Shown here piece by piece: positions 22,914-31,852 of a DNA stretch of 64,000 nucleotides. The translations under genes and the position numbers were made by a program. The notes beneath the pieces are model-generated. The model saw only the letters and a list, made by a program, of their open reading frames with translations. It did not search any database and was not told where the DNA came from. Each line of letters opens with the position of its first letter. Position 1 is the stretch's first letter. The DNA is from Cyclobacteriaceae bacterium (GTDB lineage Bacteria > Bacteroidota > Bacteroidia > Cytophagales > Cyclobacteriaceae), in contig CATQIH010000029.1 in NCBI GenBank assembly GCA_958296015.1, positions 1 through 64,000 of the forward strand. Reading direction: 5' to 3'.

Positions 22914-25277
22914 TTATTCATCTCTCAAACTCTCCACAGGGTTGGCCAGTGAGGCGCGGATGCTGTGGTAGCTTACGGTGAGGAAGGCGATCAGGATGCC
23001 TAGCAGACCGGCCATCAGGAATACACCCAGCCCGAGGCTGGTGCGGTAGGCAAAGTTGTCCAGCCAGCGGCTCATCAGGTACCAGGCCAGCGGCGAGGCA
23101 ATGAGCAGCGACAGCAGCACCAGTTTCATAAAATCCAGGGCAAACAGCCGTACGATGCCGCTGATAGAAGCACCGAGCACTTTGCGGATACCGATCTCTT
23201 TTACCCGCCGCTCCGCAGCAAAGGTAGCCAGGCCAAACAGTCCCAGACAGGAAACGAAGATGGCAATGCCTGCAAAATAGCGGAAGATACGGCCTGTGCG
23301 TTGGTCGGATTTGTACAATTGATCGTAGGCATCATCCAGAAACTCGTAGTCGAACGGATAATTGGGATTGTATTTGTTCCACTGTTCCCGTGCGGCGGCA
23401 ATGGCCTGGCTGGCTTCTGCATTGGTGGTTTTGATATACATGCTCCAGCCTTCAGGTACATAGTAAAACGCAGAGGGTTCTATCTTCTGATGAATAGAGG
23501 CAAAATGAAAATCTTTGACGACCCCGATGATCGTGGCCTCTCTCCCCCACAGTGAAAACCGCTTGCCTATCGGGTCTGTAATACCAGCCTCTTTCACTGT
23601 TGTTTCATTGAGCAGGATGTAGGCAGAATCAGCCGGAGCACCACTGAAACTTCGTCCGGTAACCAATGTCAGTTTCATATCATCTATAAAATGCTCATCG
23701 ACGCCCATCGGATGAATCAGAAACGTGCTGGTGGGTTCTTTGCCGTCCCAGTCCGTATCTCCGGTGGTGCTGCCAATATTGGTCAGTTGCTGGTCGGCGG
23801 AGGTGACCGCCAGGATGCCGGGTTGTTGCAATAGCTCGTTGCGGATGCTTTTATAATGCTCTTTCATGTCTCTCATGCCAAAGACAAACACATTCTCCCG
23901 GTCGTAGCCCAGCTTTTTGCTTCTCACGTATTCCATCTGCTGGCTGATGATCAACGTGCCGATGATCAGCGTGAGGGACAAGGTAAACTGAATCACCACC
24001 AGCGACTGTCGGAACGTGCTGTTGCCACTACTGATCTTGCTATGGCCTTTCAGCACATCGAGCGGCTCAAACCCGGAAAGCAGCAATGCCGGATAAATAC
24101 CTGCCGTCACCACCGTAAAACCAAAAGCAGCGGCCAGGGTATACAGCACGGTAGTATCCAGTGCATTGAACGACATCTGCTTGCCCACCAGGTTGTTGTA
24201 GGCAGGCATCAGCAGGTCGGCAGCCACCAGCGTAATGGCCACAGCGATGGTAAATAACAGCATGGATTCTGCCAGCAGCTGCCAGAACAATGTTCTCCTG
24301 TCGGCACCGATCAGCTTTCTCAGGCTGATCTCTTTAGCTCGCTTGGTAGCCCGTGCCGTTGCCAGATTGACATAGTTGATGCAGGCGATCAGCAGAATCA
24401 CAAAGGCGATGATGGCAAAGATGCGCACCTCCTGCATCCCTGCTTCCGTACCGTCTGCGTTGTACAGGTGCGTTTGCAACAATGGTTGAAGGCTGAAGAA
24501 AAAGTCACTTTCATCTTCCGCTTTGGCAGCATGTATTGCTTCTGTTAGTTTATTGCTTACTTCCTTCACAGAGGCTTCCGGTTGCAGCAACAGGTAGGTG
24601 GATTGGTCAAAATTACCCCAGTCGTTGGCCATGTCTTTGAAGTAGCCATTGCCCCAGAATTTCTGTGCAAAAAGGTCCATGCTAAACAGCATATCATATC
24701 GGATGCTGGAATTTTCAGGAAAATCTTCTACAACGCCACTCACCACATAATCCTGTTTGCCATCGGCCTGCATCACCTTGCCCATCGGGTCAGCCTCCCC
24801 AAAGTATCGTCTGGCTGTAGATTCAGTGACGATGACGGAGTACAGATCAGGAAAAGGCTGCTGCTGGTTTCCCTGTAACAAAGGAAAATCAAAGACGGAG
24901 AAGAAAGAAGTGTCTACATAAGCTTTCTCTGATTCGGTGAAGGTCTTGTTCTGGTATTTGAAAAGAGAGACATCGTAATTGTTGTGGATACGCACGGCAT
25001 TTTCCACCTCAGGAATAGATTCCCGGCCCACCCTGGCAACCGGAGCAGGCACACTACCCCAGGTATCTACTGCCCCATTTACGGTAAAGTTGCCATTGAC
25101 ACGATAGACACGGTCGGCTTGGGTGTGCATCGTATCATAGCTTAGTTCGTCCTGCACCCATAGCAGAATGAGCAGGCTGGTGGTGAGGCCCAGCGTGAGG
25201 CCGGCGATGTTGAGGATGCCATACGTTCTTTGCTTCCAGAAATGGCGAAGGGCGGTGGTCAGGTAATTTTTGAGCAT
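22914..25277 (-). CDS. FtsX/MacB-like ABC transporter permease
   Basis: 787 aa. The architecture is an N-terminal transmembrane helix (about 20-40), a MacB-type periplasmic domain, three transmembrane helices with an FtsX domain (about 285-430), a second periplasmic domain and a final FtsX domain (about 670-787) ending ANPVESLRDE. Proteins of this double-FtsX type are abundant in Cytophagales, usually without an adjacent ATPase. Their role is unknown but probably involves export or envelope mechanotransmission. It is a paralogue of the gene at 29340-31715. Both carry the same upstream arrangement of a -24-like GG element and two TGT-N10-ACA sites. Confidence 0.92.
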   Translation of the reverse strand: MLKNYLTTALRHFWKQRTYGILNIAGLTLGLTTSLLILLWVQDELSYDTMHTQADRVYRVNGNFTVNGAVDTWGSVPAPVARVGRESIPEVENAVRIHNNYDVSLFKYQNKTFTESEKAYVDTSFFSVFDFPLLQGNQQQPFPDLYSVIVTESTARRYFGEADPMGKVMQADGKQDYVVSGVVEDFPENSSIRYDMLFSMDLFAQKFWGNGYFKDMANDWGNFDQSTYLLLQPEASVKEVSNKLTEAIHAAKAEDESDFFFSLQPLLQTHLYNADGTEAGMQEVRIFAIIAFVILLIACINYVNLATARATKRAKEISLRKLIGADRRTLFWQLLAESMLLFTIAVAITLVAADLLMPAYNNLVGKQMSFNALDTTVLYTLAAAFGFTVVTAGIYPALLLSGFEPLDVLKGHSKISSGNSTFRQSLVVIQFTLSLTLIIGTLIISQQMEYVRSKKLGYDRENVFVFGMRDMKEHYKSIRNELLQQPGILAVTSADQQLTNIGSTTGDTDWDGKEPTSTFLIHPMGVDEHFIDDMKLTLVTGRSFSGAPADSAYILLNETTVKEAGITDPIGKRFSLWGREATIIGVVKDFHFASIHQKIEPSAFYYVPEGWSMYIKTTNAEASQAIAAAREQWNKYNPNYPFDYEFLDDAYDQLYKSDQRTGRIFRYFAGIAIFVSCLGLFGLATFAAERRVKEIGIRKVLGASISGIVRLFALDFMKLVLLSLLIASPLAWYLMSRWLDNFAYRTSLGLGVFLMAGLLGILIAFLTVSYHSIRASLANPVESLRDE

Positions 25278-25316
25278 AGCATAAGAAGTTGTGTATATGC
25301 TCTTTATAAAAAAAGT

Positions 25317-25322
25317 GTGCCA
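25317..25322 (-). promoter_or_regulatory. Possible sigma-54 -24 element of the permease gene
   Basis: On the minus strand TTTGGCACACTTTTTTT contains the TGGCAC core of sigma-54 promoters, about 40 nt before the ATG. The -12 GC is degenerate. The second permease has TGGCACACTTTT at the matching position. The shared sequence, more than the consensus match, supports function. Confidence 0.4.
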
Positions 25323-25365
25323 AACGCGCTCAGGTACTACCAGGCGGTATCTCAGCTTTGTATAT

Positions 25366-25401
25366 TGTCCGCATCAGAACAGTTGTGTGCGATAATGGAC
25401 A
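25366..25401 (-). promoter_or_regulatory. Tandem TGT-N10-ACA operator/enhancer sites (permease 1)
   Basis: Two 16-bp imperfect palindromes, TGTCCGCATCAGAACA (25366-25381) and TGTGCGATAATGGACA (25386-25401), begin 20 bp apart, so they sit on the same DNA face. They start 44 bp upstream of the TGGCAC element. The second permease gene has the same pair at the same 44-bp distance. Confidence 0.55.
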
Positions 25402-29339: not shown

Positions 29340-31715
29340 TCACTCACTCCGCAGGCTCTCTACCGGGTTCACTTTGGCAGCGCGTATGGCTCTCATGCTT
29401 ACGGTGAGGAAAGCAATGAGCACAGCCAGCAGGATGACCAGCACAAAAGGCAGCCAGGTCATGTTCATATGGTAGGCGAAGCCAGATAGCCAGCTTTTGG
29501 CCAGCCAGAAAGCAATAGGTACGGCTATGGCGCCGGCAATGAGTACCAGCTTCAGGAAATCTTTGCCCATCAGCACGACAATCTGCGGTACGGAAGCTCC
29601 CAACACTTTGCGTACACCGATCTCTTTGGTACGCTGCTCAGCCATGTAGGAGGCCAGTCCAAACAGACCCATGATGGCAATCAGCAGCGTGAGCAGGGTG
29701 GCATACAGCAGGGTTTGCCCCAACTGCTGCTGCGCTGTATACAGCCTGCTGAAATCATCGTCCAGGAAGGTGTAGCGCATCGGGTGTTCGGGTTCTATCT
29801 GCTTCCAAAACTGCTCTATCTCAGCCAGAGTGCTGTGCATATCCTGTGAAGAAACCTGAAAGGCTACATCGCCTATCCAGCCACCCACCACCTGACTGAT
29901 GGCACCTGAAATCACCAGCGGTTCTATCTGTTGTGTCAGGCTAAACACATGGAAATCCTGCATCACGCCAATGATCTCTCCCGGTTCCTCTATGCCGCTG
30001 AACTTCATATGATGCCCTATAGGGTCTTTCAGGTTATATTCTTTGACGAATGCTTCGTTGACCACAAAAGTGTTGGCTGTAGTGTCAGCATCAGACAGAA
30101 AACGACCTTGTTTCATGGTAAGGCCCAGCACATCCATGTATTCTGCATCAGTGAAATAAATGTCGACAGATGGATCATTCTGCTCACCTTCAATATGAAA
30201 AGAGTAATCCGCCGTTGGCTGTCCAGGCATGGTAGAAGCCGCGCTGATGCTGTTGATGTGCGTACTTTGCAGCAACTGCTGTTTGAGTGCCTTTATCTTT
30301 TGGTAGGTCTGGCTGGTATTGGCTTTGACCACCAGTACCTGTTCCGGCTGAAAGCCCAGCTCCTGCTGCTGCATATACTGCACCTGCCAGTAAATAAAGA
30401 ACATGACAATGGCAACGACCATAGCACCCGTAAATTGGGTAACAACCATCCCGTGCCGCAAAAGCCTGCCCCGATCCTTGCGCAGCCACTGCCCCTTAAG
30501 CACTTCCGACGGATGGTAGGCCGACAAGAACAACGCCGGATAGGCACCTGCCAGCAGGCCCAGCACCGTGACCAGTACCAGAAGGTACACGCTCAGGGCT
30601 TTCCATGTTGCCCAATCAAGTACCAACTCCCGATTTATGATGCTGTTGAAGGCAGGTAATACCAGGTCGGCCAGCAGCATGGCCAGCGGCAGAGCGATCA
30701 GTGCCTGTATCCAGGCTTCTGCCAGAAACTGCCCAATCAACTGCTGATGCGTGGCACCGGTTACTTTTCGTACGCCTACTTCCAGTGCCCTCCGGGTGGC
30801 CTGTGCAGTAGCCAGATTGATATAATTGATGGTGGCAATAGCCAGCACCACCAAAGCAACCAGTCCGATGATGTAGACCATGCGCATACTGCCTTTGCCT
30901 GTATACGGAACACTCACATGCGCTTCATTCAGGTGGATGGCCGACCAGGACTGCAAACGCCAGTCAGGGTATTTTTCCCAAGAATCTTCCACTTCTGCTT
31001 TAATGCGCGGGTTGATGTTTGCTGTGATCTTTTTTTCCAGGGCTGCTATGTCTGCGCCTTTGTGCAAAGCCACAAAAGTTGCCAGATTATTACCCGACCA
31101 GTACTCTCCAACAGAGGTCGTATCTCGTAGGATAATATCAGCCTGGAAATGCGAGTTGCCAGCATTGGGTTCCAGCACGCCGGTCACCTGGAAGTCTGTG
31201 CTGTTGTTGAATACGATCACTTTTCCTACCGGATTTTCCTGACCAAAGAGCGTATGCGCCAGTTCGTTGCTAAGCAAAGCAGACAAAGGTTGCTGCAATG
31301 CCGTGGCAGCATCACCATATTTGAGCGGAAAAGGCAACACCTGGAGAAAACTGCTGTCGGCAAAGGCAGCATTTTTGATGTACAGCGACTTTTGCCGATC
31401 GGCAGTAGATACCAGTACGTCTTCATATTCATATGCGCCAGTAGCATATTGCACCTCCGGGAAATCCATGCGTAGCACTTCTGCCAGCGGAGAAGGTGTA
31501 TGCCCGGTGCCTCTTCCCGGCTCCCACTGCCGGTATACTTTGTAGATATTTTCATAACCGGGAAGCCAGGTATCGTAGCTTAGCTCATGGCGTATGAAGA
31601 TGATGGCCAGTATGGCCACCGCCAACGCGATAGTCAGTCCCACCATATTGACCACTCCGTATACTTTCTGTTTTCGGAAGCTTCGGAGCGCAACAAGTAA
31701 ATAATTTTTTAGCAT
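29340..31715 (-). CDS. FtsX/MacB-like ABC transporter permease (second copy)
   Basis: The ORF track extends to 31793, but the ATG at 31715 (MLKNYLLVALRSFRKQKVYG) matches the start of the paralogue at 25277, giving 791 aa. The topology is the same: one N-terminal helix, a MacB-type periplasmic domain, FtsX helices near residues 280-420, a second periplasmic domain, and a C-terminal FtsX domain ending NPVESLRSE. No ATPase gene is adjacent. The two paralogues share upstream sequence elements with identical spacing, so they are probably co-regulated. Cargo is unknown. Confidence 0.92.
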   Translation of the reverse strand: MLKNYLLVALRSFRKQKVYGVVNMVGLTIALAVAILAIIFIRHELSYDTWLPGYENIYKVYRQWEPGRGTGHTPSPLAEVLRMDFPEVQYATGAYEYEDVLVSTADRQKSLYIKNAAFADSSFLQVLPFPLKYGDAATALQQPLSALLSNELAHTLFGQENPVGKVIVFNNSTDFQVTGVLEPNAGNSHFQADIILRDTTSVGEYWSGNNLATFVALHKGADIAALEKKITANINPRIKAEVEDSWEKYPDWRLQSWSAIHLNEAHVSVPYTGKGSMRMVYIIGLVALVVLAIATINYINLATAQATRRALEVGVRKVTGATHQQLIGQFLAEAWIQALIALPLAMLLADLVLPAFNSIINRELVLDWATWKALSVYLLVLVTVLGLLAGAYPALFLSAYHPSEVLKGQWLRKDRGRLLRHGMVVTQFTGAMVVAIVMFFIYWQVQYMQQQELGFQPEQVLVVKANTSQTYQKIKALKQQLLQSTHINSISAASTMPGQPTADYSFHIEGEQNDPSVDIYFTDAEYMDVLGLTMKQGRFLSDADTTANTFVVNEAFVKEYNLKDPIGHHMKFSGIEEPGEIIGVMQDFHVFSLTQQIEPLVISGAISQVVGGWIGDVAFQVSSQDMHSTLAEIEQFWKQIEPEHPMRYTFLDDDFSRLYTAQQQLGQTLLYATLLTLLIAIMGLFGLASYMAEQRTKEIGVRKVLGASVPQIVVLMGKDFLKLVLIAGAIAVPIAFWLAKSWLSGFAYHMNMTWLPFVLVILLAVLIAFLTVSMRAIRAAKVNPVESLRSE

Positions 31716-31766
31716 AGCATTGAGAGAATAATACTTTTGTAGGATACACTTTCTTTTGAGAAAAGT

Positions 31767-31772
31767 GTGCCA
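31767..31772 (-). promoter_or_regulatory. Possible sigma-54 -24 element (permease 2)
   Basis: The minus strand reads ATGGCACACTTTTCTCA about 50 nt before the ATG. TGGCACACTTTT is shared with the promoter region of the first permease gene. The -12 element is not a clean TTGC. Confidence 0.4.
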
Positions 31773-31815: not shown

Positions 31816-31852
31816 TGTCCGAATTAGGACAAAGTATGTACGATTGTGAACA
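31816..31852 (-). promoter_or_regulatory. Tandem TGT-N10-ACA operator/enhancer sites (permease 2)
   Basis: TGTCCGAATTAGGACA (31816-31831) and TGTACGATTGTGAACA (31837-31852) start 21 bp apart. They begin 44 bp upstream of TGGCAC, exactly as at the first permease gene. The sites lie in the gap shared with the divergent TspO-like gene and could also act on it. Confidence 0.55.

Follow-up and report, generated by a model that had tools for sequence, protein, structure and literature searches.

Phased tandem activator sites before double-FtsX permease genes suggest a two-component sigma-54 regulon in a Cyclobacteriaceae bacterium

NtrC/AtoC-type regulons bring together a receiver-AAA+-Fis activator, a histidine kinase, paired upstream sites, and a -24/-12 promoter, and enhancer-binding proteins (EBPs) carry a canonical GAFTGA loop. 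The candidate system described here is built from the same parts. It differs in that its loop reads G[AS]FTDA, in a class of tandem promoters without the -12 G, and in its targets, which are double-FtsX permeases and envelope proteins. Bce/Lia modules of Bacillota, whose kinases have two transmembrane (TM) helices joined by a short loop, offer a second comparison. Such a short-loop kinase, an FtsX-type permease, and a LiaG-like toastrack protein (below the LiaG cut-off) recur here, whereas the predicted regulator is a sigma-54 activator and not of the OmpR or LuxR type, and the permeases are of the MacB/ADOP double type. In Bce modules a permease acts as the sensor of the kinase, a role to which nothing in the sequences analyzed here points. 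The darobactin exporter DarBCD and MacAB-TolC likewise combine an adaptor, a separate ATPase, a double permease, and TolC. NCBIfam Dar models gave the best score for the adaptor and both ATPases of our set, all below curated cut-offs, and for this reason we do not count the regulon proteins as Dar members.

An earlier paper predicted, at the COG level, that the FtsX-like permeases of COG0577 in Bacteroidia are under sigma-54 control (PMC12316311). That prediction agrees with ours in gene family, phylum, and -24/-12 promoter, and the accessible part of the paper names no activator, upstream site, phasing, or defined regulon for these permeases. In Flavobacterium psychrophilum, sigma-54 (SM4) starts were mapped experimentally for envelope-stress and protein quality-control genes (PMC9723704), which shares with our set the use of sigma-54 in Bacteroidota and the envelope-stress theme; its main text, as far as accessible, does not mention permeases and leaves the activators unassigned. 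The literature searched held no description of the activator proposed here, its site, its phasing, or its regulon. Orphan double-FtsX permeases are present in many copies in many Bacteroidota with roles largely uncharted, and our analysis proposes a likely regulator for a large group of these transporters. The candidate activator, site, and promoter together provide a handle on which permeases one regulator controls and which stress is tolerated. The regulon would also help to tell which ATPases serve the orphan permeases, and whether sigma-54 promoters work without a -12 G given two activator sites.

Promoters upstream of the two window permeases

The window, the whole 64-kb stretch of DNA that was analyzed, contains two double-FtsX permease genes, and the minus-strand letters upstream of both (22914-25277 and 29340-31715) were read directly (Table 1). 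The -24 element TGGCA is present in both promoters, within TGGCACACTTTT, which begins at 25322 in promoter A and at 31772 in promoter B; the start codons follow at 25277 for permease A and 31715 for permease B. TGGCAC is separated from the inner palindrome edge by 44 bp in both cases (25366-25322 and 31816-31772), and the paired palindromes are offset by 20 bp in promoter A and 21 bp in promoter B. This is the arrangement that a sequence-only reading had reported, with paired palindromes 20-21 bp apart at an identical 44-bp spacing from TGGCAC in otherwise different flanking DNA, and all three of these points are confirmed by direct reading, the permeases themselves being only 34% identical. 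That reading wrote its consensus on the strand opposite to the one read towards the genes; for a palindromic motif this makes no difference.

Each of the four sites is a 16-bp palindrome of the form TGTNC-N6-GNACA. Strict matches to this form occur in the 64-kb window at these four places only, with about one expected, and a search of the whole 5.9-Mb genome for TGGCACACTTTT without mismatch returned two places only, both of them window promoters. In the same-genus genome G248, the permease B orthologue (locus L315) retains both palindromes together with TGGCAT, at 79 and 59 bp, as well as the block CAGATGGCAYAYTTTTYTCAAA, in surroundings that have otherwise diverged. The permease A orthologue of the same-genus species sits behind another permease and has neither palindromes nor TGGCA upstream, and the full layout was not found at more distant permease orthologues.

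Table 1. Features of the two window promoters and of the candidate regulator locus
Feature	Location	Strand	Description	Basis or status
Permease A	22914..25277	-	double MacB_PCD-FtsX, 787 aa; no adjacent ATPase gene	Pfam; NCBIfam; orthologues
Distal activator site, promoter A	25386..25401	-	TGTCCATTATCGCACA; 79 bp start to start from TGGCAC	putative
Proximal activator site, promoter A	25366..25381	-	TGTTCTGATGCGGACA; 59 bp start to start from TGGCAC	putative
Sigma-54 -24/-12 region, promoter A	25306..25322	-	TGGCACACTTTTTTTAT; without G at -12	putative
Permease B	29340..31715	-	double MacB_PCD-FtsX, 791 aa; no adjacent ATPase gene	Pfam; NCBIfam; orthologues
Distal activator site, promoter B	31837..31852	-	TGTTCACAATCGTACA; 80 bp from TGGCAC; kept in same-genus L315	putative
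Proximal activator site, promoter B	31816..31831	-	TGTCCTAATTCGGACA; 59 bp from TGGCAC; kept in L315	putative
Sigma-54 -24/-12 region, promoter B	31756..31772	-	TGGCACACTTTTCTCAA; without G at -12; block CAGATGGCAYAYTTTTYTCAAA common with L315	putative
Candidate activator	G000:C14:111.97-113.38 kb (L124:4469-5884)	minus	receiver-AAA+-Fis, 471 aa	Pfam
Candidate kinase	L124:3127-4479	minus	450 aa; adjoins activator	

A genome-wide promoter set and its helical phasing

The genome was scanned for the palindrome followed by TGGCA, as exact patterns with a variable gap of 22-50 or 50-80 bp and with the reversed pattern as control. The shorter range gave 8 matches (1 for the reversed pattern) and the longer range 27 (2 for the reversed pattern), or 35 against 3 in sum, mostly before double-FtsX permeases or permease operons. 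The strong enrichment, chiefly before double-FtsX permeases, is what the sequence-only reading had expected of such a scan. The variable-gap exact patterns were used in place of a composite pattern with one fixed spacing and 2 mismatches, which had returned 76 matches against 51 reversed. Inspection of the downstream genes left about 17 plausible promoters, a classification made by reading and unscored, and about a dozen of them drive a double-FtsX permease gene or an operon that includes such a gene. Further targets are an ATPase-TolC operon, a pentapeptide protein, an outer-membrane protein, and a toastrack protein (DUF4097) whose match to LiaG scores below the cut-off. One permease operon in the set starts with a small secreted protein that, by eye, is apparently of the DUF2807 type. 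By the same unscored reading, the remaining matches, mostly off phase or intragenic, look like chance.

Individual loci show further peculiarities. In this genome (G000), a near-identical palindrome-TGGCA promoter segment is present in two copies (C20:139864 and C20:194769), one preceding an outer-membrane protein and the other without a clear gene. At locus L109, a GC-rich, MITE-like stretch bounded by the inverted repeat ATACTACGGTACATTT ... AAATGTACCGTAGTAT separates the promoter (4860) from its permease (5248).

In this genome, distances from site to TGGCA cluster near 48, 59, 68, 79, and 89 bp; relatives have a further cluster near 102 bp. Phasing was measured by a Rayleigh test with a period of 10.5, which gave R=0.56 in this genome (n=34), R=0.65 in relatives (n=51), and R=0.66 for matches near activator genes (n=41). 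In each of these three sets, the observed value was unreached in 2000 trials of random distances over the same range; we quote R values and not p-values because related sequences are non-independent. The best-fitting period was 11.1, rather than 10.5, in the two related sets. Matches in genomes without a close activator homologue were unphased (n=27, R=0.12, not significant). Measured in this way, the putative enhancer-type sites sit on one helical face relative to the promoter.

A candidate activator and the regulon it would control

We propose, with a probability of roughly 85%, that the paired palindromes are tandem upstream activator sequences, phased with a -24/-12 promoter and recognized by a two-component enhancer-binding activator. 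The best candidate for this activator is encoded with its kinase near 112 kb on contig C14. Pfam identifies receiver, sigma-54 AAA+, and Fis HTH domains in this protein. The activator and kinase genes sit between two palindrome-TGGCA promoters, with strict sites on both sides, one of which drives an adaptor-DUF5694-ATPase-permease operon and the other ATPase-TolC. An enhancer-binding response regulator had been suggested from the window, together with the remark that the window has no sigma-54 regulator; the C14 pair supports the suggestion and, as it lies on another contig, accounts for the regulator's absence. We infer that the C14 activator is the cognate activator of the sites and binds the palindromes, and that one kinase-activator pair, elsewhere in the genome, probably runs the network.

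The loop of the C14 activator was found to be GAFTDA and not GAFTGA. G[AS]FTDA is present in 80 of 80 activator relatives (L163-L242), and, of this genome's further EBPs that were inspected, all but one paralogue have GAFTGA. Across the 80 relatives the recognition helix is near-constant, mostly LTR[AS]SLYRRL. Hydropathy scans of the kinases at related loci mostly gave two TM helices with very short loops, usually of 4-9 residues, a layout typical of intramembrane-sensing histidine kinases; in the kinase of this genome the first helix alone passed the threshold. The candidate kinase seems to have a pair of TM helices with few residues between them and no periplasmic sensor domain.

The paralogue with the GAFTDA loop (C14:17.9-19.2 kb), which is 53% identical to the candidate, could in principle read the sites alone or together with the C14:112 kb activator, and its subfamily, similar recognition helix, and position beside a permease cluster speak for such a role. 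We nevertheless consider it unlikely, given that the permease by this paralogue has a variant site, TGTCTCGAAAACGATACA, without a strict TGTNC-N6-GNACA pair, and that strict sites flank the C14:112 kb pair on both sides, unlike the paralogue. The variant palindrome, with 7-bp half-sites, lies at L104:12535 (G000:C14:20534), upstream of that permease, and possibly represents a second binding specificity. With up to 3 mismatches allowed, 15 stretches contained one match to it with 1 mismatch and four others with 3.

The 80 activator loci represent Cytophagales, Bacteroidales, and further groups. At many of them the same promoters precede the adaptor, the ATPase, or the first permease, and in many relatives, too, the activator and kinase are flanked by two such promoters; some close relatives of the activator, such as the Roseivirga loci, have no strict site nearby. 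We divided 248 Bacteroidota genomes by the presence of an activator homologue at E <= 1e-100 (75 with and 173 without), a division under which genomes without a match may still hold a more distant homologue. Composite matches numbered 190 in the 75 genomes with a close homologue, where the reversed pattern had 48; the 173 genomes without one showed little excess, with 166 against 133. Among the matches listed from homologue-bearing genomes, 26 of 101 have an activator gene within 500 bp.

The best reading of the whole set is a putative two-component sigma-54 envelope-stress regulon, in which envelope stress is suggested as the signal because of the target genes. The kinase would sense envelope stress and then phosphorylate the activator, which would bind TGTNCG-N4-CGNACA and remodel the sigma-54 polymerase by looping. 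The neighboring adaptor-ATPase-permease and ATPase-TolC operons would thereby be switched on, as would a dozen or so scattered permease genes, many of which lack ATPases and which include the window pair, and likewise toastrack-type envelope proteins.

The -12 element and the supply of ATPases

The sigma-54 promoter consensus joins a -24 to a -12 element. Relatives supplied 43 promoters, picked only by palindrome, phase, and TGGCAY so that the -12 was unselected. Of these, 98% have T at position 12 and 95% (41/43) have G at position 14, exactly at the expected -12 spacing, and none has C at position 15. The window promoters read TTTTA and TCTCA and lack the -12 G (position 14, counting from the T in TGGCA), with T in its place. 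This G is also missing in the tandem promoters C14:102314, L315, and L335. Tandem promoters with sites at 57-59 and 77-80 bp are without it in 5 of 5 cases, compared with 2 of the 43 promoters from relatives, although this subclass was defined after the data were seen and its numbers are small. The genome has an rpoN gene. The proposal that TGGCAC marks a sigma-54 promoter is supported: the -24 element, the phasing, the -12 element in relatives, and rpoN favor it, with the qualification that the window promoters lack the -12 G. Because this G is absent, the assignment at the two window promoters draws on TGGCA at -24, the phasing of the sites, and the footprint at permease B, from which we infer sigma-54 dependence.

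IHF-like WATCARNNNNTTR elements lie between the activator site and TGGCA in 7 of 23 Flavobacterium-type promoters, against 0.2 in shuffles. We do not use them as evidence because those promoters come from related genomes and because visual inspection of the window linkers revealed none.

Window promoters without a -12 G would also suit ordinary promoters at which the palindromes serve as repressor operators, for instance for a PadR-type protein tied to such permeases. HAAS-PadR systems have been linked to FtsX/MacB permeases (PMC11237479), and one promoter of our set drives a PadR gene and a permease with an N-terminal extension. No PadR gene, however, is present among the scanned neighbors of the window permeases, and a fixed helical phase to the -24/-12 elements, together with adjacency to sigma-54 activators across the phylum, would be unexpected of a repressor, making this explanation highly improbable. 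Chance or recent duplication can be practically dismissed as the source of the shared layout: the two genes belong to one family and lie about 4 kb apart, but their low protein identity makes a recent duplication unlikely, and the differing flanks, the excess of genome matches over control, and conservation in another species contradict both; on this sequence evidence the layout is real and no chance product.

The proposed sigma-54 regulon bears on how its permeases are energized. The scanned neighbors of the window permeases encode a DUF2204 nucleotidyltransferase, a GDSL lipase, a glucuronyl esterase-like protein, and a TspO-like protein, with no ATPase gene among them. Permease A matches an NCBIfam ADOP/DarB-like model below its cut-off, and against the ADOP duplicated permease model TIGR03434 the window permeases score 304 and 275 bits, below the cut-off of 622. 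A search with one regulon ATPase found two ATPases in the genome at >50% identity, the query included, and both are in the regulon. Since there are two such ATPases and roughly 29 double permeases in the genome, ATPase sharing by orphan permeases is plausible, and the orphans may use ATPases of the same regulon. More tentatively, and with the odds somewhat against it, we suggest an envelope-stress system found across Bacteroidota, in which G[AS]FTDA activators and a short-loop kinase would replace Bce/Lia, at least a dozen double permeases, many of them orphans sharing one or two ATPases, would be controlled, and tandem promoters would work without the -12 G. Two permease genes, L054 (C18:162572) and L058 (C1:91859), have an in-frame TAG within the matched region.
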